A DNA stretch of 64,000 bases, taken from Nitrosopumilaceae archaeon. GTDB lineage: Archaea > Thermoproteota > Nitrososphaeria > Nitrososphaerales > Nitrosopumilaceae. The stretch spans positions 1-64,000 of the forward strand of contig JANQNN010000044.1 in NCBI GenBank assembly GCA_028279545.1. The letters run 5' to 3'. This document shows, piece by piece, positions 389 through 58,997 of this stretch (its first letter is position 1; each line of letters starts with the position of its first letter). The position numbers and the translations under genes are program-made. The notes beneath the pieces were generated by a model that saw only the letters and a list, made by a program, of their open reading frames with translations, was not told the DNA's origin and made no database searches.

Positions 389-1552
389 ATGGAGACTAAA
401 AATATTGGATTAAGGGGTATTGAGGTCGCAGATACCAAAGTATCCAATATTGATGGGGAGAAAGGCAAGTTAATCTATAGAGGTTATGACATTCTTGATT
501 TAACGAAAAATTCTACATTTGAAGAAACCTCATATCTGTTATTACATGATGATTTACCAACCAAGGCACAATTAGATGAATTTAGGTCCAAACTAAAAGA
601 AGCCAGGTTTATTCCAAAACAAATGCAAATCAATATGGGCAACTGGAGAAAAGATGCAGACCCCATGGATATGTTGCAGGCTTTTGTTTCTGCACTTGCA
701 GGATATTATGACGAAGAATTCTCATCAAAAGAATCAAGTTATGATAGAGCCATCAATCTAATTTCAAAGACTGCAACCATCATTGCAAGTTGGTATAGAA
801 TTAGAAATGACCTACCAATTATTGATCCAGATCCATCTTTGGATCATGCTGCAAATTTTATCTATATGATGTTTGGAGAAAAACCAGATCCAAAAATAGA
901 AAAGACATTCGATACTTGTTTAATATTGCATGCTGAACACACATTTAATGCATCTACATTTATTGCAAGACAAGTAGCATCAACAAGGGCTCATATGTAT
1001 TCGGCTGCAAGCGCTGCAATTGGTGCTTTAAGTGGAGAGTTACATGGTGGAGCAAATTACGAAGTAATGAGAATGCTCTTAGATATTGAGGACATCAACA
1101 ATGTAGAGTCTTGGATAACCCAAAGAATGGATAAAGGTGAAAAAATAATGGGAATGGGTCATGCAGTTTACAAAACTTATGACCCAAGAGCTCAAGTACT
1201 CAAAGAACTTTCAAGAACAGTTGCAGAAAAAACAGGTGACCCTTGGTATAAAATCACTGAAAAAGTAGAGAAAACTACTATTGAAGAAATGAAAAAACGA
1301 AAAGGAATGGACATTTATCCTAACGTTGATCTCTATAGTGCCTCTTTGTATTACATGCTAAAGTTCCCAATGGATCTTAATACACCAATTTTTGCACTTT
1401 CTCGTGTTGTTGGTTGGGCAGCTCATATAATAGAAGAGAAATTTGCAGAAGCTGCACCAAAAACTGCATTATACAGACCTAAGGCCGTTTACGTTGGAAA
1501 ATATTGCGGTCCTGAAGGCTGTGAATACAAAACTCTTGACTTGAGAAAATAG
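389..1552 (+). CDS. gltA: Citrate synthase
   Basis: Condenses oxaloacetate and acetyl-CoA to citrate, the entry to the oxidative branch of the TCA cycle, in the cytoplasm. The 387-residue length is normal for archaeal and bacterial type II short citrate synthases. The catalytic histidines are in GELHGGAN (His219) and MGMGHAVYK (His258), and the catalytic aspartate is in PNVDLYS (Asp314). In an autotroph using the 3-hydroxypropionate/4-hydroxybutyrate cycle, this enzyme would serve 2-oxoglutarate and glutamate synthesis. The gene is alone, has a TATA box placed for leaderless transcription, and ends 3 nt before a convergent small gene. A 2-methylcitrate synthase activity cannot be excluded by sequence alone. 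Confidence 0.93.
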   Translation: METKNIGLRGIEVADTKVSNIDGEKGKLIYRGYDILDLTKNSTFEETSYLLLHDDLPTKAQLDEFRSKLKEARFIPKQMQINMGNWRKDADPMDMLQAFVSALAGYYDEEFSSKESSYDRAINLISKTATIIASWYRIRNDLPIIDPDPSLDHAANFIYMMFGEKPDPKIEKTFDTCLILHAEHTFNASTFIARQVASTRAHMYSAASAAIGALSGELHGGANYEVMRMLLDIEDINNVESWITQRMDKGEKIMGMGHAVYKTYDPRAQVLKELSRTVAEKTGDPWYKITEKVEKTTIEEMKKRKGMDIYPNVDLYSASLYYMLKFPMDLNTPIFALSRVVGWAAHIIEEKFAEAAPKTALYRPKAVYVGKYCGPEGCEYKTLDLRK

Positions 1553-28043: not shown

Positions 28044-28895
28044 CTATATTCTTGGCATAATGCTGAGTTTTGATTTTGCAGAAATACCAATAATCGAGAT
28101 TATTGCAATTGCTAAAATCATTACAGCAATTGTTCCAAACTCTGGCACAACTTGTTTTGTTGCAATTTCACCAGGAGCCTCAACGTATAACTCATCATGA
28201 CCAAATCCAACTGATTCTATTGTAATTACAACTGGCATTGAATCTGAGGCATCAACAGACAATGCTGTTGTTGAGTGGGTGTTTGTCAAAGTCCCTTGGT
28301 GCATATGTCCTTCTTCATCAAGTACCACATCAGAACCTTGCGTTGCTTTGATGTTGTAGGTGATGTGTTCTATGCCATTTCCATCAAGGTCAGTCAGTGT
28401 TAGGTCAATTGTCATGGCTTCATTTGCCATTCCCTCACTGGTTTGAATTTCTGCCATGATCTCATTCGGATCCATGACAACTGTTGGTGTTGGTGTTGGT
28501 CCTGCACCTCCAGCTTGAACTTTTACAATTCCTTCCATCCATGGGTGAACCATACAAAAGTATGGAAATTCTCCTTCTTCGTTAAACTGGAATGAGAAGG
28601 TTGTTCCAGCCATAAACAAGCTGCTGTCAAAGACACCAGATGGTCCATCTGTTGCACTTCCTCCAGTTACAGTGTGAGCTGCTGTGTCGTCATTTGACCA
28701 TACTACTTCATCACCAACATTTACTGTAATTTCATATGGAATGTAGCACTCATTAGTTTCCTCACATCCTGGAACAGATGTTCCCTCAGGAGTACTAACA
28801 GTCACGGTTTCAGCAAATGCTGGTTGCATGCCTATAGTCATGACAATTGCAAATATTGCCATTAATGGAAATACGGTTTTGTTTTGTATTTTCAT
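28044..28895 (-). CDS. Secreted plastocyanin-like protein with PEFG-CTERM sorting signal
   Basis: Numbered from the ATG at 28895. Residues 1-28 are a cleavable signal peptide (ends PAFA). Residues 30-127 are a blue-copper domain with ligands His74, Cys114, His117 and Met120. A TPTPT linker follows, then a beta-rich domain (about 140-245). The C-terminus is VVPEFGTIA plus a transmembrane helix and basic tail, which matches the PEFG-CTERM signal known from Nitrosopumilus surface proteins; it probably anchors or processes the protein at the cell surface. The frame extends seven codons upstream, but the signal peptide starts best at 28895. A 32-nt palindrome lies 73 nt upstream. Confidence 0.88.
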   Translation of the reverse strand: MKIQNKTVFPLMAIFAIVMTIGMQPAFAETVTVSTPEGTSVPGCEETNECYIPYEITVNVGDEVVWSNDDTAAHTVTGGSATDGPSGVFDSSLFMAGTTFSFQFNEEGEFPYFCMVHPWMEGIVKVQAGGAGPTPTPTVVMDPNEIMAEIQTSEGMANEAMTIDLTLTDLDGNGIEHITYNIKATQGSDVVLDEEGHMHQGTLTNTHSTTALSVDASDSMPVVITIESVGFGHDELYVEAPGEIATKQVVPEFGTIAVMILAIAIISIIGISAKSKLSIMPRI

Positions 28896-28967
28896 TAGAT
28901 CAAGCCCTTTCCACAAAGATAAAAAACTTGTCCTTGAAAAAAGAAAGTAGCTATAGCAAATTCTTCA

Positions 28968-28999
28968 TTACGACAGTGACAGAACTGTCACTGTCGTAA
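28968..28999. promoter_or_regulatory. Perfect 15-bp inverted repeat, probable operator
   Basis: TTACGACAGTGACAG and its exact complement are separated by AA. It lies 73 nt upstream of the cupredoxin start and 52 nt upstream of a divergent small gene (29051). It contains a nested GTGACAG/CTGTCAC repeat. It is GC-richer than its surroundings and lacks a T-tract, so an operator is more likely than a terminator. Confidence 0.65.
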
Positions 29000-29050: not shown

Positions 29051-29164
29051 ATGGACAAAAAAGATTTGCTGGTTTTATCTGGAATTATTGGCGGAGCAGG
29101 CATTTTTTTAACTTTAATTAATTTAATGGCAAATGGAACTATAGAAAATCCCTTCATTAGATGA
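29051..29164 (+). CDS. Single-pass 37-residue membrane peptide
   Basis: MDKKDLLV starts a hydrophobic helix (LVLSGIIGGAGIFLTLINLM) followed by a short polar tail. The predicted topology is N-in. It is divergent from the copper protein and shares the palindrome-bearing region. Function unknown; possibly a small membrane-complex subunit. Confidence 0.5.
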   Translation: MDKKDLLVLSGIIGGAGIFLTLINLMANGTIENPFIR

Positions 29165-29232: not shown

Positions 29233-29352
29233 CAATGAATTTTTTCCGGTATCAACCTCGAGAATGCAAAATTAATTGATATATCATGATAGTTCTATTG
29301 TATATTGGTAGGTAAGAAAAACACGTCAGCAAAAAAGGTGATTAATCAAATC
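29233..29352 (+). repeat. Diverged duplicate of the glnA promoter and 5' coding end
   Basis: These 120 bases align without gaps to 47441-47560, the promoter and first 16 codons of glnA, with about 16 differences by eye. Identity is highest from the TATA region through the start codon. It stops abruptly inside the codon that starts the Lys-Lys run of GlnA (after AATCAAATC). Confidence 0.85.
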
Positions 29353-29382
29353 CGATTCTTCTATATTAAAAAAGAAAAGTAG
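29305..29382 (+). pseudogene. Truncated glnA fragment (first 16 codons, then unrelated sequence)
   Basis: Starts with TTG like the intact glnA, reads MVGKKNTSAKKVINQI, then departs into nine unrelated codons and stops at 29382. Of three differences from intact glnA in the coding part, one changes an amino acid (Ala2 to Val) and two are synonymous, so the fragment probably came from a functional second copy. Its TATA region is also preserved, so a 25-residue peptide could still be expressed. Confidence 0.7.
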
Positions 29383-29384
29383 GG

Positions 29385-29465
29385 TTATTCACATGAGCAT
29401 TTACAACTATTATCATTGTTGCAAGAACTACCACACGTGCAAGTACATTTACATTCGCTTGTCAT
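29385..29465 (-). CDS. Metallothionein-like 26-residue Cys-rich peptide
   Basis: Eight cysteines in 26 residues, arranged CKCTCTC then GSSC, then CKCSC near the C-terminus; no aromatic residues. This spacing (C-x-C repeats) is what metallothioneins use to bind Cu(I), Zn or Cd. Translation signals are strong: GGAGGTG (complement of 29471-29477) lies 5 nt before the ATG, one of the best Shine-Dalgarno sequences in the window. A TATA-like TATAATAATATG is just upstream. It faces an HxlR regulator across 105 nt and a TATAGT-A-ACTATA palindrome. Named metallothionein families usually are longer, so this is by pattern only. Confidence 0.65.
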   Translation of the reverse strand: MTSECKCTCTCGSSCNNDNSCKCSCE

Positions 29466-29488
29466 GACATCACCTCCAATCATATTAT

Positions 29489-29501: not shown

Positions 29502-29570
29502 GAAAGTTAAGTTAATAAACAGTCAAGTGTCAAAAAGTATAGCAGGTTAGGTTTTGTTAAGTTGTCACGA

Positions 29571-29969
29571 ATGATAGATTTTCTACCAGAAACATGCAAA
29601 AATGAACCAATTGATAATACTTTTAGAATTATAGGAAAAAAATTCACCATTCACATTCTGAGAAATATGGTTTTACTTGATCAAAACAGGTTTAACGAAT
29701 TTCTAAATTCCATTGAAGGAATCAACCCTAACACATTATCTGCTAGATTGCGTGAAATGGAAGAAGAGCAAATAATTAAAAAAAATGTTACTAAAGGCAA
29801 TCCTGTTAAAATAGAATATGTGTTAACCAATAAAGGAAGAGCCCTTCAACCAATCTTAGAGGAAATGGCAAAATTTTCAATGAAATTTTGTTGTAATGAA
29901 ATTTTCAAAGATGCAAAGCCTCGTACTTTCAAACAAGTCTATGGAAGTACTCTGCCAATCATTGATTGA
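29571..29969 (+). CDS. HxlR-family winged-helix regulator
   Basis: A 132-residue regulator. Seen: CKNEPIDNTFRIIGKKFTIHILRNM, then RFNEFLNSIEGINPNTLSARLREMEEEQII (the typical HxlR recognition helix), then the wing KIEYVLTNKGRALQPILEEM. Cysteines in the N-terminus (ETCKN) and in FCCNE may sense redox or metal. Start at the ATG at 29571; a TTG nine bases upstream is in frame. Likely controls the divergent Cys-rich peptide or itself. Confidence 0.8.
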   Translation: MIDFLPETCKNEPIDNTFRIIGKKFTIHILRNMVLLDQNRFNEFLNSIEGINPNTLSARLREMEEEQIIKKNVTKGNPVKIEYVLTNKGRALQPILEEMAKFSMKFCCNEIFKDAKPRTFKQVYGSTLPIID

Positions 29970-47440: not shown

Positions 47441-47512
47441 CAATGGTTTTTTTCCAGTATCAATAGCGAGAATGCAAATTTAATTGATATACCTTGAATC
47501 CTCTATTGTATA
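47441..47512 (+). promoter_or_regulatory. glnA promoter
   Basis: TTAATTGATATACC, centred about 27 nt before the TTG start at 47513, implies a leaderless or near-leaderless mRNA. This stretch is the part duplicated at 29233-29304, where the TATA region is also preserved. Confidence 0.55.
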
Positions 47513-48907
47513 TTGGCAGGTAAGAAAAATACGTCAGCAAAAAAAGTGATTAATCAAATCAAAAAATCAGGAGTAAAGTGGGTTAGGCTTCAATTTTGTA
47601 ATCCCTTTGGTTTATTGCATCAGCTAAATGTTCCATCAACAGAAATAACAAAGCAGTCTTTTTCTGACGGCTTTCCATTAGATGGCAGCTCAATTTTGGG
47701 CTATACTACAATTGATAAATCAGATATTTTGCTTGTTCCAGACCCTTCAACTTTTACAATACTTCCAGAGTATTTTGATAAAAATTACACAGATTCTAAA
47801 AATTATTCATCAAAATCTGCTCGAATGTTTGTAGACGTATACAAAGGATTTGGGCAAGGAAGATTCTCAAGGGATCCCAGATTTATTGCACAAAAAGCAG
47901 AACAGTATTCAAAAAAGAATGGATTTGATAAAACATACTGGGCAGCAGAGCTTGAATTTTTTGTATTTGAAAAAATGCAAACCTCCTCACCTGAAATTTT
48001 CTCAAAAGAAGCTCCTTGGGTTACAAAAAACAATGAAGAAGCAATTCAGCTAAAAAGAGGTTATTATAGAGACTCACCATCAGACACTCTTACAAATTTC
48101 CGCGACGAGGTGTGTGATACATTAATGAAATTTGGAGTAAATCCTATTGCTCATCACCACGAGGTTGCAACTGCAGGACAAAGTGAAATTGTTTTAGCTT
48201 ATCAAGAACTTGTAAAAATGGCAGATAGTTTTTTAACTGGAGTAAAAACAATCCGTGAAGTAGCATCAAGACGGAATTTAATTGCAAGCTTTAAACCAAA
48301 ACCAATACCAAATGATAATGGTTCTGCTGTTCACATCAATCAAAGCTTGTGGAAAACCAAAAACAAAAAACAAGTCAATGCATTTTATGATTCATCAGAT
48401 AAATATGCAGAACTAAGCCAATCAGGTCACTATTACATTGGCGGTCTGCTAGAACATGCAAAGGCTCTTTGTGCAATTACCAATCCAACAAAACAATCCT
48501 ACAAGAGACTAGTTCCAGGATACGAAGCACCAACAAATATTGCGTGGGGAAAAATGAATCGCTCAGTAAGTGTTAGAATCCCAGCACATCACAAGAAAAA
48601 ACCCAATAACAAGAGAATTGAATACAGACCTCCAGATCCTACATCAAACATTTACCTCGTAGAATCTGCGCTCTTGTTAGCTGGCCTTGATGGAATAAAA
48701 AAGAAGCTTCAGCCTCCCCCACCTGTAGATGTTGATACCTACAAACTATCAGATAGAGAAATGAAGAAGATGTCAATAAAGAAGCTTCCAACCTCCTTGA
48801 CGGAATCAATTAATGCAATAAAATCAGATAAAGAGTTTTTAAAATCCCTATTTGATGATGATTTTTTGGAAATGTATATCGAAAACTTGATTCAGATTTC
48901 AAAATAA
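47513..48907 (+). CDS. glnA: Glutamine synthetase type I
   Basis: Assimilates ammonium into glutamine. Seen: PLDGSSILGYTTIDKSDILLVPD, the AAELEFFVF metal-binding strand, HHEVATAGQSEI, SAVHINQSLWK, HYYIGGLLEHA, RLVPGYEAPTNIAWG, and NKRIEYRPPDPTSN. The 464 residues are normal for the archaeal/alpha type. The usual adenylylation tyrosine motif of the GSI-beta type is not obvious near the C-terminus. A TTG start follows its TATA box at leaderless spacing. Ammonium is both energy source and nitrogen source for this organism. Confidence 0.93.
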   Translation: MAGKKNTSAKKVINQIKKSGVKWVRLQFCNPFGLLHQLNVPSTEITKQSFSDGFPLDGSSILGYTTIDKSDILLVPDPSTFTILPEYFDKNYTDSKNYSSKSARMFVDVYKGFGQGRFSRDPRFIAQKAEQYSKKNGFDKTYWAAELEFFVFEKMQTSSPEIFSKEAPWVTKNNEEAIQLKRGYYRDSPSDTLTNFRDEVCDTLMKFGVNPIAHHHEVATAGQSEIVLAYQELVKMADSFLTGVKTIREVASRRNLIASFKPKPIPNDNGSAVHINQSLWKTKNKKQVNAFYDSSDKYAELSQSGHYYIGGLLEHAKALCAITNPTKQSYKRLVPGYEAPTNIAWGKMNRSVSVRIPAHHKKKPNNKRIEYRPPDPTSNIYLVESALLLAGLDGIKKKLQPPPPVDVDTYKLSDREMKKMSIKKLPTSLTESINAIKSDKEFLKSLFDDDFLEMYIENLIQISK

Positions 48908-53459: not shown

Positions 53460-53879
53460 TTAGGGAATTGTCTTTCCATTTGGCGACATTTTAGGATTGC
53501 CAAGGATTGACGAAAGTGAATTTGTAAACTCGTCACTCATGTGATGTTCCATTCCACAAACAATCTCCTCGTCAGGATTGATCTTAAGATAGTTGACCAT
53601 CAACACTTCTAGCAACCTGCTCTTTCTAACAATGTTTGCTCCTAGTTTTTCACCTTTTTCTGTCAATGTTATATCCATTTTGTTGTATTTTACATAATCC
53701 ATATCATCTAGCTTTTTCATCATCTGTACAACACTAGGCTGTCGTATTCTAAGCAGATTGGCAACAGTACTGACCCTGATTGGTTTGTTATTCTCTGTAA
53801 TCAACCACATTGCTTTTAGATACATCTCAACATGCTCCTCTGAAGCTGTCCCAACAAAGAGTCTTTCATTAATTGTCAT
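53460..53879 (-). CDS. DtxR/MntR-family metal-dependent repressor
   Basis: Winged-helix N-terminus (EMYLKAMWLITENNKPIRVSTVANLLRIRQPSVVQMMKKLDDMDYV, then YNKMDITLTEKGEKLG) and a dimerisation/metal domain with CGMEHHMSDEF, which holds the usual Cys/Glu/His/His ligands. 139 residues; the SH3-like third domain is absent, as in short MntR-like members. Start at the ATG at 53879, which overlaps the stop of the upstream Lrp-like gene by 11 nt. Confidence 0.88.
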   Translation of the reverse strand: MTINERLFVGTASEEHVEMYLKAMWLITENNKPIRVSTVANLLRIRQPSVVQMMKKLDDMDYVKYNKMDITLTEKGEKLGANIVRKSRLLEVLMVNYLKINPDEEIVCGMEHHMSDEFTNSLSSILGNPKMSPNGKTIP

Positions 53880-54126
53880 CTTTGCAGTTTGTTGCCTCCT
53901 CATTTATCTTAAGAGTGTAAGTAGACCTGATGTTTTTTAGCTTGCGTATCTTCCATGTAACTGTCTCATGCAATTCATCTGTTGTATTGGCTTGAATCTT
54001 TACAAGAATATCATATGGTCCGCTAACACATTGCATCTCTTTTACTTCAGGTATTTTTTTAAGATGTTTAATTACATCTTTTTCCTCGTTTTTCTTGCAA
54101 TTTAGTAAAACAAAACAACCTGCCAA
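53869..54126 (-). CDS. Stand-alone Lrp/AsnC ligand-binding (RAM) domain
   Basis: 85 residues with the RAM pattern: FVLLNCKKNEEKDVIKHLKKIPEVKEMQCVSGPYDILVKIQANTTDELHETV. No DNA-binding helix-turn-helix, so it acts as a small-molecule sensor partner for other regulators. The start is a TTG at 54126. Co-transcribed with the DtxR gene. Confidence 0.75.
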   Translation of the reverse strand: MAGCFVLLNCKKNEEKDVIKHLKKIPEVKEMQCVSGPYDILVKIQANTTDELHETVTWKIRKLKNIRSTYTLKINEEATNCKDDN

Positions 54127-54141
54127 ATTTCATCATGCCTC

Positions 54142-54321
54142 TTATTTTTGAAAATGCACTCTTGCCTCTTCTGAACTGATTATTCTATGTAATAACTTGC
54201 CAGTAATCTCACTTTCTCCCATGATTGCTTTTTGGCCATCTGCAAATCTAACAAACTCTGGATCTACTAGATTAACAAATTCTCCTACATCTTCATCATA
54301 TGCTTTCCAAACTTTTTCCAT
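54142..54321 (-). CDS. Cys-less DUF5679-like protein, paralogue 2 (most divergent)
   Basis: 59 residues: KVWKAYDEDVGEFVNLVDP, VRFADGQKAIMGES, TGKLLHRII. Same spacing as the paralogues at 31254 and 59774; the Cys positions are Asp, Val, Ser and Thr. TATA-like TTATTTAATATAGG lies about 25-30 nt upstream on this strand (around 54340-54352). Confidence 0.65.
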   Translation of the reverse strand: MEKVWKAYDEDVGEFVNLVDPEFVRFADGQKAIMGESEITGKLLHRIISSEEARVHFQK

Positions 54322-54392
54322 AAATTAGTCTGTCTTTACCTATATTAAATAATTATGTCAGTTTTATTAAAATTTGTTAAGAAAAATAATAT

Positions 54393-54412
54393 TCTTAATA
54401 ATCCTTAAATAG
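54393..54412 (+). promoter_or_regulatory. Promoter box of structured RNA 1
   Basis: TCTTAATAATCCTTAAATAG (20 nt). The last eight bases are a TATA box 28 nt before the RNA element's closing stem (54433). The matching box at 60026-60045 differs by three bases. The TCTTAATAAT part may bind a regulator. Confidence 0.6.
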
Positions 54413-54432
54413 CTATAGTTATGGGAATAATG

Positions 54433-54499
54433 ATGTCATGTTTCAACGATAAAATACCCGTACCCCGAAACAGGTAAATTCCTAAAGCATGACATTTTT
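54433..54499 (+). ncRNA. Structured RNA element 1 (candidate)
   Basis: Closing stem ATGTCATG (54433-54440) pairs with CATGACAT (54488-54495), 8 bp, followed by a T-run. Inside, TTTC (54441-54444) can pair with GAAA (54467-54470), and AGG/CCT (54472-54474/54481-54483) closes a small loop. A TATA box sits 28 nt before the stem. The 3' strand matches element 2 at 60068-60125 (see findings). No gene follows on this strand before znuA; it overlaps nothing coding but points into the 3' end of nikR, antisense. So it is a leader with early termination, or a free small RNA. Confidence 0.55.
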
Positions 54500-54507
54500 A
54501 AAAATAA

Positions 54508-54891
54508 CTACAAAGCTACAAGCTTTACAGTATCCATTTTCCTGTCAGTAAGAAAGCCCTTGGTTATTGATTGTATCTTTTTAGAATCTCCGTCCAAAAA
54601 AAACATCTCCATACATCTTTCTCCATCTAGCTTATTGTGTAAATGAGTTTTAATCAAGTCCTCAAAGGAATGTTTTATTTTTGCGACTTGGGCGTCAAAC
54701 TCGTCTGCGTGAACCACAATTAATACAGCATTTTGTTTTCCCTTCATTTCCATCTTTTGCTTTTCTTCTGCCACAAATGTCCTGATTCCTGCACGAATTA
54801 TCTCAGATCTTCCCGTGAACCCCATTGAGTCCTGAAGTTTGTCAAGTGAGTTTATCATATCATTGTTCAAGGATATTGAAACGATTGGCAT
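54508..54891 (-). CDS. nikR: NikR-type ribbon-helix-helix nickel-responsive regulator
   Basis: Ribbon-helix-helix DNA-binding domain (IVSISLNNDMINSLDKLQDSMGFTGRSEIIRAGIRTFV) and the C-terminal ACT-like metal domain (NAVLIVVHADEF, then HSFEDLIKTHLHNKLDGERCMEMFFLDGD with the His/Cys nickel ligands). 127 residues, normal. In this island it more likely controls zinc or nickel transport genes. Its 3' end faces structured RNA 1. Confidence 0.9.
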   Translation of the reverse strand: MPIVSISLNNDMINSLDKLQDSMGFTGRSEIIRAGIRTFVAEEKQKMEMKGKQNAVLIVVHADEFDAQVAKIKHSFEDLIKTHLHNKLDGERCMEMFFLDGDSKKIQSITKGFLTDRKMDTVKLVAL

Positions 54892-55018
54892 TGAATGTTA
54901 GATTAATAATTGTTATTTAAATTTAGTCTTGATTTTTAATAATATTAAATAAAACCTAGTGCTGTTAGTTATTAATTTTGACTAAAGTCATATAATTTCT
55001 TATTAAGTTTATATTGTA

Positions 55019-55029
55019 TTATTAATAAT
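55019..55029 (+). promoter_or_regulatory. TTATTAATAAT box upstream of znuA
   Basis: A palindromic TTATTAATAAT 24 nt before the znuA start (TTG at 55053), adjacent to AAGTGAT (55041-55047), a Shine-Dalgarno-like sequence. A candidate operator for NikR, DtxR or another metal regulator. Confidence 0.5.
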
Positions 55030-55052
55030 CATTTAAAGAAAAGTGATCCGAA

Positions 55053-56369
55053 TTGAATAAGACATCATCAGCTGCTATAATAGGTGGAGGAGTTGCTGCA
55101 GTTATTGCTATTGTTTTTGCAGTTGTAATGTTCTCTGGAATGTCCGAGAGCCAAGAACCTATTGACAATTTAGTTGAGGAGAATAATGAAAATAATGTTG
55201 TAACGCAAGAAAGTAAGATACGTGTACTAGCTACATTTTATCCATATTATGAATTTGCAAGAAATGTAGCTGGGGATTCGGCAACAGTAGAGCAATACAT
55301 GCCATCAGGAGTAGAAGCACATGATTGGGAGCCAAGACCTCAAGAAATCCAATCGTTGAAGGATGCGGATGTTTTAGTGTATAACGGATTAGGAATGGAA
55401 CCTTATATTGATAACATGATTGATTCAGGTGAGTTTGACAATGTTTTGTTCCTAAAAGCAGCTGAAGGAGTTGAACTGATAAAACCTGAGGAAGAACACG
55501 ATGATCATGGAGATGAAGAGCACGGTGATTCCCATGCAGAAGAATTTGCAAAAGAAATTGAACACGTCATAGAAGAGTTTGAGCATGGTCACATTGATTC
55601 AGCTAAAGCACAAACCGAAATAGAAGAGATTCTACATGAGCATGAAGGAGACGGACATGATCATGGAAATGAAACTATTGAAAAAATTGAAGCAGTATTA
55701 CATGAGATAGAAGATGGACACATGAGTGCTGAAGAAGGATTCGAAGAGATTCATCATATTGTTTTAGAAATTAAAGAAGAAGAACACGATGATCATGGAG
55801 ATGAAGAAGGGGGGCATCATGGGCATCATCATCACAACTTTGAATTTGATCCTCATATTTGGTTAGATCCAGCATTGGTAAAACAGCAAGTAAACAACAT
55901 CCGAGATGGATTAATTGAAGTAGATCCACAAAACAAAGAAAATTATGAACAAAATGCCTTATCATACAATGAAAAACTAGATGCGCTGGATATGAAAATA
56001 AAGTCATCATTGGCATCATGTGAAAAAGACACCTTTGTTCCATTTCATAATGCATTCACATATCTTGCAGAAAGATATGGCCTCCAAGTAATGTCTCTTG
56101 GCGGTCTAGCTCCTGAAGCGGAGGCTTCTGCTGCCGAGATTGCAGAGTTTGTTGATTTTGTAGAAGAAAATGACATCAAAGTTATCTTTGCAGAAGAACT
56201 GGTTGACCCAAGACTTGCTGAAGTCATTGCAGATGAGGCAGGTGCAGAAGTCATGATATTCAGCCCTCTAGAAGCATTGGCTCCTGAAGAAGTAGGAAAA
56301 AACATAACATACATCGATAAGATGGAACAAAACCTTGATGCCCTAAAGGTTGCCCTTGAATGTCAATGA
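55053..56369 (+). CDS. znuA: Zinc ABC transporter substrate-binding protein with expanded metal-binding loop
   Basis: Extracytoplasmic zinc-binding lipoprotein-like anchor (residues 7-30 hydrophobic) of the ZnuABC importer. The ZnuA fold has IRVLATFYPYYEFARNV, GVEAHDWEP (ligand His90) and later FDPHIWLDPALV, VPFHNAF and IFAEELVDP. Between residues about 146 and 280 is a His/Asp/Glu-rich insertion far longer than in typical ZnuA, containing two EEHDDHGDEE blocks and a repeated helical unit. TTG start. Forms an operon with znuC and znuB. Confidence 0.9.
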   Translation: MNKTSSAAIIGGGVAAVIAIVFAVVMFSGMSESQEPIDNLVEENNENNVVTQESKIRVLATFYPYYEFARNVAGDSATVEQYMPSGVEAHDWEPRPQEIQSLKDADVLVYNGLGMEPYIDNMIDSGEFDNVLFLKAAEGVELIKPEEEHDDHGDEEHGDSHAEEFAKEIEHVIEEFEHGHIDSAKAQTEIEEILHEHEGDGHDHGNETIEKIEAVLHEIEDGHMSAEEGFEEIHHIVLEIKEEEHDDHGDEEGGHHGHHHHNFEFDPHIWLDPALVKQQVNNIRDGLIEVDPQNKENYEQNALSYNEKLDALDMKIKSSLASCEKDTFVPFHNAFTYLAERYGLQVMSLGGLAPEAEASAAEIAEFVDFVEENDIKVIFAEELVDPRLAEVIADEAGAEVMIFSPLEALAPEEVGKNITYIDKMEQNLDALKVALECQ

Positions 56370-57172
56370 CATGTGTCCTTGAAGTAGAAGATCTTAGTGT
56401 TAGTTTTAATGGCCATCTTGCAGTAGATAATATCAGCCTTAAAGTAAATGAAGGAGATATACTTGGACTTATTGGACCAAACGGTTCTGGCAAGACCACA
56501 TTGTTCAGAGCAATTTTGGGACTGCAGCCACATTCTGGAAAAGTAAGGATGTTTGGATATGAGGGTTCAAAGCTCCGTACGTTAATACCACTAATCGGAT
56601 ACGTCCCACAAAGGGTATCTTTTGAGCCAAACTTTCCTGCAACCGTGTATGACATTGTTTCAATGGGAATTATATCAAACAAAAAGATAGTCAAGGGAGA
56701 CAAACTAATTCAACAATGTGGATGTTGCTGGAACATGATATACAAGAACATCGAAAACAAAGATGATAAAATTACTGAAGCTCTAAAAACCGTAGGACTA
56801 GAACATCTAAGAAACAGAAGAATTGGCCAACTTTCCGGAGGAGAATTGCGCCGAGTCTTTATTGCAAGATGCCTTGTAAAGGATCCTTTGCTTTTAATTT
56901 TAGATGAGCCGGCAACCAGTGTTGATGTTGAATCATCAAACAAATTTTATCAAGCAATAAAAAAGATAAACGAAGAAAACAAAATCACGATAATGTGGTC
57001 ATCACACGACATTGAGGCAGTATCAAAATATGCAACCAAAGTTGCATGTATAAACAAAAAATTATTCTACCATGGTGAAAAAGACAAATTCTTCTCTGAC
57101 AAGGAACTTTTAAAAACATACACAGAATCTTCAATGCAGATGCATATGCATGATCATCACCATACTCATTGA
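56360..57172 (+). CDS. znuC: Zinc ABC transporter ATP-binding protein
   Basis: ATPase: Walker A GPNGSGKTT at 39-47, Q-loop VPQRVSFEP, LSGGELRRV at 158-166, Walker B LLLILDEPATS and H-loop WSSHD. Odd features: a Cys cluster CGCC around residues 120-123 in the helical domain, and a His-rich tail (MQMHMHDHHHTH) that may sense or buffer zinc. An ATG at 56366 would overlap znuA by ATGA and is an equally good start. Confidence 0.92.
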   Translation: MSMTCVLEVEDLSVSFNGHLAVDNISLKVNEGDILGLIGPNGSGKTTLFRAILGLQPHSGKVRMFGYEGSKLRTLIPLIGYVPQRVSFEPNFPATVYDIVSMGIISNKKIVKGDKLIQQCGCCWNMIYKNIENKDDKITEALKTVGLEHLRNRRIGQLSGGELRRVFIARCLVKDPLLLILDEPATSVDVESSNKFYQAIKKINEENKITIMWSSHDIEAVSKYATKVACINKKLFYHGEKDKFFSDKELLKTYTESSMQMHMHDHHHTH

Positions 57173-57187
57173 ATTAGGAAATACACA

Positions 57188-58039
57188 ATGGTTCTTGAAG
57201 CTCTAACTTATGGATTTGTACAAAAGGCATTAATTTCAGGAATTGCAGTTGCCATAATCTGCTCGTTTATGGGAACCTTTCTTGTTTTGAGACGGTACGC
57301 TTTGTTTGGTGACGGAATAGCTCATGTAGCATTTGGAGGCGTAGCAGTTGGTTTGTTTTTTGGAGTGTTTCCACTATGGAGTGCATTTGTTGTTTCTATA
57401 GGTGGAGCGCTAGGATTACAAAAACTAAGACAGAGCACCAAAATATCTGGAGATGCGGCTGTTGCAGTTGTTCTGGTTTCAGGTTTGGCAGTAGGGGTTA
57501 TTTTGGTTAGTTCTTCAGGAGGTTTTTCAGTGGACCTGTTTAGCTTTTTGTTTGGAAGCATTTTGCTGATTAGTAACGAAGACATGATAATGATTCTTGG
57601 AATCAGCGCAGGTATTATTGCCACACTTGTTTTGTTACAAAAACAATTTTTTCAGCTTACATTTGATGAGGAACAAGCCAAACTTGCAGGACTGCCAGTT
57701 ACTATGTTAAACTATGCCTTTGTAGTACTTGCTTCAATAACTGTAGTAACGTCAATGAGACTGGTTGGAATCTTGCTAATCTCTGCCCTCATTGTTTTGC
57801 CAAACATTACTGCGATGATGTTTGGAGTAGGATTCAAAAAAACACTTGGAATTTCCATGTTAATTTCAGCTTCATCTGTCGTATGTGGTATCCTTTTGTC
57901 TTATTATTACAATATCGCACCATCAGGTACCATAGTGGTAGTTGCAGTTTTCATTCTCCTAGGAGTGCTTGCGGCCAAATCTGCAGGATTGATTTCAAAA
58001 ATAGAAATGAAGAAACATTCTCAATTATCACACAGTTAA
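57188..58039 (+). CDS. znuB: Zinc ABC transporter membrane protein
   Basis: 283-residue permease with eight or so membrane helices. Family motifs include MGTFLVLRRYALFGDGIAHVAFGGVAVG (the conserved Asp-Gly/His cluster), VDLFSFLFGSIL, DEEQAKLAGLP (EAA-like loop) and MRLVGILLISALIVLP. Follows znuC by 15 nt. Completes the zinc importer. Confidence 0.92.
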   Translation: MVLEALTYGFVQKALISGIAVAIICSFMGTFLVLRRYALFGDGIAHVAFGGVAVGLFFGVFPLWSAFVVSIGGALGLQKLRQSTKISGDAAVAVVLVSGLAVGVILVSSSGGFSVDLFSFLFGSILLISNEDMIMILGISAGIIATLVLLQKQFFQLTFDEEQAKLAGLPVTMLNYAFVVLASITVVTSMRLVGILLISALIVLPNITAMMFGVGFKKTLGISMLISASSVVCGILLSYYYNIAPSGTIVVVAVFILLGVLAAKSAGLISKIEMKKHSQLSHS

Positions 58040-58154
58040 ACCAGACTAAACTATTTTAAAAATATTTTTCGCTTTTATTTTTGCAGTGGTTGAATCATTA
58101 CTAGGAATTCATCAACAAGTAATATCGCCGTACATCAAGTTGTTCCAGAAAAAA

Positions 58155-58997
58155 CTATCGCGCATGAACTAAAGATTCTCTAATTACTGAAATTGAAAAA
58201 TAAATTACTAGTGTTGCTATCCCTAAACCGATAATAACATCAGGCCACATAGAATTGAAAAATCCAACTAGAATTCCTGCTCCAATGACACCAAAATTTC
58301 CAAATAAATCGTTTCTAGAACATGTCCAGGCGGATTTTAAATTAATATTTTCACCTTTATGTCTTGATAATAATATGAAGCATATGATGTTTGCAATTAA
58401 TGCCAAGACTCCAATAAAAGAAATGGTTTCTGCATCTGGGACTGTTGGGTGAGTTACTTTGTTGAATACTTCCCAAAAAACAAATGCCCCAAAGAGGAGC
58501 ATGATTATGCCTTTCATTACAGATGCTTTTGCTTGAATTTTATGGTTTTTAGTGAGAACAAACAAAGTTAATCCGTATACAAATGCATCTCCAAACATAT
58601 CAAAAGAATCAGCAATTAATGCGCTGGAATTGGCAATTAATCCGCTTATTAATTCCACAACAAACATTCCAGCATTGATAAAAAATACTGCATAAAGTAC
58701 CGGTTTTAATTTTTTAATAACATTTTTTGAAAGGTAAGGTACAGTGTTACAACAATCAAAGCTGATTTTTTTATCAGATTGTTTGTTATCCTCACAAGTT
58801 CCTTCCTCACAACATTTATCGTCTTTGATTGTCAACTCTGAATTTGTCTTGACTTGGTTTTGGTTTTTGTAAGATTCTTTGTGAACTGAGGGGCAGCAAC
58901 ATTCAGTATTCTTGGTACAAATTGTGCAAAGTGTATAATCTCTAATTGTATTACAATGCTGTGGAATACATAAACACTCAAAACATTTTGAATTCAC
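58155..58997 (-). CDS. Cation diffusion facilitator with Cys-rich N-terminal domain
   Basis: Residues 85-280 are a CDF-type exporter with six membrane helices and metal-site segments ALIADSFDMFGDAFVYG and SRNDLFGNFGVIGAGILVGF. In place of the usual short N-terminus, the first 83 residues hold 14 cysteines (KCFECLCIPQHC, TLCTIC, ECCCPS, DKCCEEGTC, FDCCN), as in a metallothionein or zinc-finger domain. It may load metal onto the transporter or act as a sensor. GTG start at 58997. Opposite the zinc importer, so it balances zinc. Confidence 0.85.
   Translation of the reverse strand: MNSKCFECLCIPQHCNTIRDYTLCTICTKNTECCCPSVHKESYKNQNQVKTNSELTIKDDKCCEEGTCEDNKQSDKKISFDCCNTVPYLSKNVIKKLKPVLYAVFFINAGMFVVELISGLIANSSALIADSFDMFGDAFVYGLTLFVLTKNHKIQAKASVMKGIIMLLFGAFVFWEVFNKVTHPTVPDAETISFIGVLALIANIICFILLSRHKGENINLKSAWTCSRNDLFGNFGVIGAGILVGFFNSMWPDVIIGLGIATLVIYFSISVIRESLVHAR

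Follow-up and report, generated by a model that had tools for sequence, protein, structure and literature searches.

A cysteine-rich microprotein gene and its divergent HxlR-type regulator form a conserved module in Nitrosopumilaceae

On the reverse strand of the window, the whole 64,000-nucleotide stretch of DNA analysed here, a gene of 26 codons and a stop codon (29385..29465) encodes a cysteine-rich microprotein, MTSECKCTCTCGSSCNNDNSCKCSCE. Eight of its 26 residues are cysteines arranged in CxC runs, with no histidine and no aromatic residue, and the peptide has the composition of the metallothionein class (small size, very high cysteine content, CxC motifs, and few or no aromatics). The CxxC motif is absent, and so are the two C(P)XCG knuckles that mark zinc-finger micro-proteins. 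A Shine-Dalgarno sequence, GGAGGTGA (29470..29477, reverse strand), is a perfect match and lies 5 nt before the ATG. An earlier sequence-only reading had described the frame with its strand, length, eight cysteines, CxC spacing and lack of aromatics, as well as a GGAGGTG(A) ribosome-binding site at this distance, and re-reading the sequence agrees on every one of these points. An in-frame upstream ATG could add six residues to the N-terminus (MIGGDV; 29466..29483, reverse strand); this ATG is not conserved, and the related genome G263 reads ATA at that position. Directly after the stop codon lies a T-rich stretch, CTTTTCTTTTTT (29365..29384, reverse strand), which is likely an archaeal terminator.

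Divergent from the peptide gene is a regulator gene with a TTG start (29562..29969, forward strand). Its 135-residue product is a winged-helix protein of the HxlR family (DUF24; Pfam PF01638, E 9e-22, 77.1 bits against a cut-off of 20.8), which bears out the earlier proposal that an HxlR regulator faces the peptide. The solved structures closest to it are YodB, YdzF, YybR, and HxlR, and it does not belong to the ArsR/SmtB family; the nearest NCBIfam models, RrpA/RrpB, match below the cut-off.

Homologues of the peptide were sought in 250 genomes of the family with a pattern consisting of the ribosome site, an ATG, and CxCxC. Five were found, in G174 (MTDECKCTCTCGSSCNNDNSCNCTCG), G086 (MTNECKCVCTCNCSCDSKSGCDCSNE), G128 (MCEECNCKCTCNCSCCRNGNCECSCE), G263 (MTEKCSCTCSCNCSCNSEDCDCKCE), and G123 (MTDKCVCDCNCDCVDHNNGVCDKECSCNCGCN). 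The CxCxC near the start is present in these matches by construction; the search placed no requirement on the other cysteines, the partner gene, or the promoter. In the six-member alignment, Met1 and seven cysteines are invariant and the spacers vary. A profile built from the six peptides scores these same sequences at E values of 1e-9 to 8e-7, with the next best match at 0.046. When 61 relatives were searched at the protein level with the peptide alone, no credible homologue emerged; the sole match was spurious and lay within a long coding frame. A looser pattern added only chance matches, among them one in G211 (MDENCGCKNKEY...), which was set aside as unrelated after inspection of its sequence. 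None of the six peptides matches a Pfam or NCBIfam model, no metallothionein family model fits, and the six-peptide profile found no match in the PDB.

The shortness of the frame, together with the conservation of the intergenic DNA around it, would fit a chance ORF in a promoter region that is conserved for another reason. However, the changes between the window and four relatives are silent more often than they are replacements (pN/pS 0.14–0.41; one pair without the window gives 0.86, and estimates are noisy at such a length). The cysteine columns are kept while the spacers between them differ, indels come in multiples of three, the stop codon and the T-run after it are retained, and TGT and TGC are silently swapped at cysteine codons in the five members that align without a long insertion. 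Sequences simulated from the window with a first-order Markov model held on average 0.05 small frames with at least six cysteines and at least 20% cysteine per 64 kb, against one in the real window, which is this gene, and none of 150 such sequences contained one behind GGAGG. We therefore give a chance frame next to no credence. The comparisons indicate that 29385-29465 on the reverse strand is a real, conserved gene. The suggestion that a small gene of metallothionein-like composition had been missed here by gene callers is upheld. It has its own promoter, and the cysteine pattern and the partner regulator are kept in five other species.

The intergenic DNA is strongly conserved in the six species, including TTATTAACTTAACTT and the Shine-Dalgarno region TGGAGGTGA, the latter being identical in all six. 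The promoter, the Shine-Dalgarno sequence, and the T-run after the stop are common to every locus, and the peptide gene is divergent from an HxlR regulator gene at equal spacing in each of them (6/6). Each of the six loci also has a pair of AACTTAAC boxes with a spacing of exactly 50 bp. In the window, box 1 (29506..29513, reverse strand) abuts the putative TATA box of the peptide promoter, TTATTAA (29512-29518), and box 2 (29556..29563, reverse strand) overlaps the TTG start of the regulator gene. Because of these positions, the boxes would fit repression of both genes. They are the only two copies of AACTTAAC in the 64 kb, where 3.5 are expected by chance. A 13-bp palindrome in the promoter, pointed out in the sequence-only reading, does exist in the window genome (29489..29501) but is not maintained in the relatives; it was rejected as a conserved operator, the AACTTAAC pair being what is kept instead. 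A scan of the genome for the promoter sequence gave no second good match, and therefore no wider regulon was found.

The module has a patchy distribution. The peptide is carried by 6 of the 250 family genomes, representing six species and 4 of 22 genera, and this rarity indicates that it is dispensable. The expectation that relatives would share the cysteine pattern was borne out in species of three other genera and failed within its own genus, where none of the nine other genomes carries the peptide. Outside the family, the pattern found no case in 168 sampled genomes of the order, and the profile found none in a phylum sample of 398 genomes. In a separate observation from another family of the order, a 15-residue ORF, MECCCCCCPDCCDHH, stands behind a perfect GGAGGTGA in L177 (about 1493-1537, reverse strand) and overlaps the end of a small cysteine-containing ORF.

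The six peptide-linked regulators are 70–91% identical, to that of the window or among themselves, and all score above 270 bits in a scan of the family, where the next-best regulator, that of G175 (228 bits), lacks a peptide of this kind. Among about 85,000 species genomes, three full-length regulators were found with at least 71% identity, all of them with the peptide, whereas none of the more distant regulators from this search has one; carriers named by the search are Nitrosopumilus sp. IP29b_bin.65, Nitrosopumilus sp. b1, and Marine Group I thaumarchaeote SCGC AAA799-D11. Viral contigs contained no relative of the regulator. The regulators of the window and G174 are 91% identical while their ileS genes are 81% identical; between G174 and G123, ileS reaches 88% and the regulator 74%. 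This discordance points to horizontal exchange of the module between the window and G174. G174 also holds the flavoprotein and FeoB genes that neighbour the module in the window, some kilobases from its own module, and the exchanged segment may be larger than the two genes.

The other surroundings of the peptide gene differ among species. The next downstream gene is convergent in G086, G123, and G174, and this bears on whether the frame could be a cysteine-codon leader peptide that senses the supply of cysteine or Cys-tRNA and attenuates a downstream gene. A short ORF enriched in one codon family behind a strong ribosome site is what such a leader would look like. Nevertheless, convergent neighbours in three of six loci, downstream genes that are not the same, and T-runs directly after every stop deny it a same-strand target, so that we regard a leader as highly improbable; the convergent neighbours and the T-runs indicate that the peptide itself is the product. 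A RiPP or bacteriocin-like precursor, processed into a modified or exported peptide, would likewise be small, cysteine-rich, fast-evolving, and patchy. The peptide, however, has neither a signal sequence nor a leader-core division, and the neighbourhood gene lists contain no obvious modification enzyme (family models were run on selected neighbours), making such a precursor similarly improbable.

Five of the six copies have metal genes within a few kilobases. FeoB is near the copy in the window and in G174, which also has CobW; a ZupT-like permease (below the NCBIfam cut-off) and a DtxR-type repressor are near the copy in G123, with matching synteny in G128; and G263 has a CDF efflux protein and TerC. 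The exception is G086, with no metal gene nearby and only a Na/H exchanger. These neighbours are no more than suggestive of a metal role, the six contexts not being independent. Further features were observed in the window. Upstream of a gene with a plastocyanin-type domain (28044-28916) is a near-perfect 32-bp inverted repeat, TTACGACAGTGACAG..CTGTCACTGTCGTAA (28968-28999), possibly a regulator site. A 37-codon ATG ORF, MDKKDLLVLSGIIGGAGIFLTLINLMANGTIENPFIR (29051-29164), is hydrophobic, has no Pfam match, and possibly encodes a small membrane protein. Just downstream of the peptide gene, 120 bp (29233-29352) are 87% identical to 47441-47560; they are a degenerate copy of 5' sequence from a glutamine synthetase-like gene (47513-48907), likely a rearrangement scar. 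A metal cluster at 53460-58997 comprises a DtxR-type repressor, NikR, ZnuA, an ABC-3 permease, and a CDF transporter whose N-terminus is cysteine-rich.

HxlR/DUF24 regulators of known function have been reported to sense electrophiles and oxidants, not metals, typically through an N-terminal cysteine, and the sensor of B. subtilis HxlR is Cys11 (PMC7835342). This background, with RrpA/RrpB as the nearest though sub-threshold NCBIfam models, supports the main rival to a metal-thiolate reading, in which the cysteines of the peptide supply thiols that buffer oxidants or electrophiles or are sacrificed to them, under a redox-sensing HxlR, and metal binding is incidental. The wider regulator group is consistent with it as well: of 57 distinct regulators, 15 face a cysteine-rich protein of 113–117 residues and three a thioredoxin within the distance tested, so that this group as a whole tends to adjoin thiol-rich products. 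On the other side, four of the six peptide-linked regulators have Glu or Asp in place of the canonical sensor cysteine beside the proline, a cysteine that all 51 others compared retain. The regulator of the window has Asn-Glu at the columns of the YodB and HxlR sensor cysteines and thus no cysteine there; its Cys12, two to three residues earlier, is invariant in the six peptide-linked regulators, as are Cys110 and Cys111. It is a reasonable guess that the sensor site of these regulators has changed its ligand, possibly to a metal. Dense CxC spacing also fits metal clusters better than disulfide exchange, and we consider a thiol-redox role rather unlikely. The 113–117-residue proteins (L154 1046-1399 and similar loci) constitute an uncharacterised family with a head that is cysteine-rich and in part SEC-C-like, a tail that is conserved and looks helical, and no Pfam match above the cut-off.

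The reading that we favour, with fair though not firm confidence, is that the peptide is a stand-alone cytosolic metallothionein-like microprotein switched by the adjacent HxlR-type winged-helix regulator. We infer from the sequence that the module is expressed and that its product binds metal, as well as which metals are likely, the direction of regulation, and the site where the regulator binds. The monocistronic gene would yield a short CxC-repeat chain folded around a small metal-thiolate cluster, and the microprotein would buffer or sequester a thiophilic metal, most likely Cu(I) or Zn/Cd. The intergenic pair of AACTTAAC boxes is the probable binding site of the HxlR regulator, which, when bound, would repress its own gene along with the peptide promoter; contact of a metal or an oxidant with the cysteines of the regulator would then lift the repression. 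Copper is attractive given the cupredoxins in the organism, such as the product of 28044-28916 with its plastocyanin-type domain, while Zn/Cd would suit the neighbouring genes equally well. No observation here sets copper, proposed in the sequence-only reading, apart from Zn/Cd or from a thiol-redox role.

Ammonia-oxidising archaea rely on copper enzymes. To our knowledge, how they hold metals inside the cell is poorly known and metallothionein-like products have rarely been described in archaea; a search of the open literature, with partial coverage, found no paper on an archaeal metallothionein. A bolder proposal, which we put forward tentatively and with less than even confidence, is that these peptides are a new archaeal metallothionein family of ammonia-oxidising archaea, spreading together with the regulator gene as one two-gene unit, and that the redox cysteine of this HxlR regulator has become a metal-sensing thiolate site, so that the smtA-smtB switch was independently reinvented. 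If so, the known range of HxlR regulators could widen from oxidants to metals, and a 26-residue gene, under most annotation cut-offs, would exemplify how gene callers miss metal-handling proteins.

Several known systems resemble parts of the module. The best PDB match of the peptide is the yeast Cu-metallothionein CUP1 (PDB 1RJU, 1AOO), which is cysteine-rich along the aligned stretch; the E value of 1.8 is not significant, reflecting composition rather than giving evidence of common descent, and the CUP1 chains are longer (36–40 residues). MymT, a mycobacterial Cu-metallothionein with a predicted capacity of up to six Cu(I), is also a small cysteine-rich protein that annotation overlooked (PMC7558416) but comes from another lineage and has about twice the mass (4.9 kDa). 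The haloarchaeal zinc-finger micro-proteins are archaeal, under 70 residues, and have metal-binding cysteines (PMC10716476); these are in paired C(P)XCG knuckles, whereas the window peptide has CxC runs only. The copper storage protein (Csp) of Nitrososphaera viennensis is a cysteine-rich putative copper protein of an ammonia-oxidising archaeon but is much larger, with 18 cysteines making up 15.3% of its residues (PMC7785015), and Csps fold as four-helix bundles (PMC7558416).

The closest parallel in organisation is smtA-smtB, a cyanobacterial metallothionein and its winged-helix repressor, where the gene for a cysteine-rich peptide of the metal-binding type is likewise divergent from the regulator gene and the two share an intergenic region that contains the operator-promoter (PMC7387436). 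All six loci show this arrangement, with a metallothionein-like gene and a winged-helix regulator gene transcribed divergently from a shared promoter region. The parts are different: the regulator is of the HxlR/DUF24 and not the ArsR/SmtB family; the window peptide is shorter, lacks histidine, and fits no metallothionein model; and the shared region carries AACTTAAC direct repeats in place of 12-2-12 inverted repeats (PMC8790569). In our analysis, the best explanation is that the module would be a convergent counterpart of the cyanobacterial smtA-smtB, assembled from unrelated parts.
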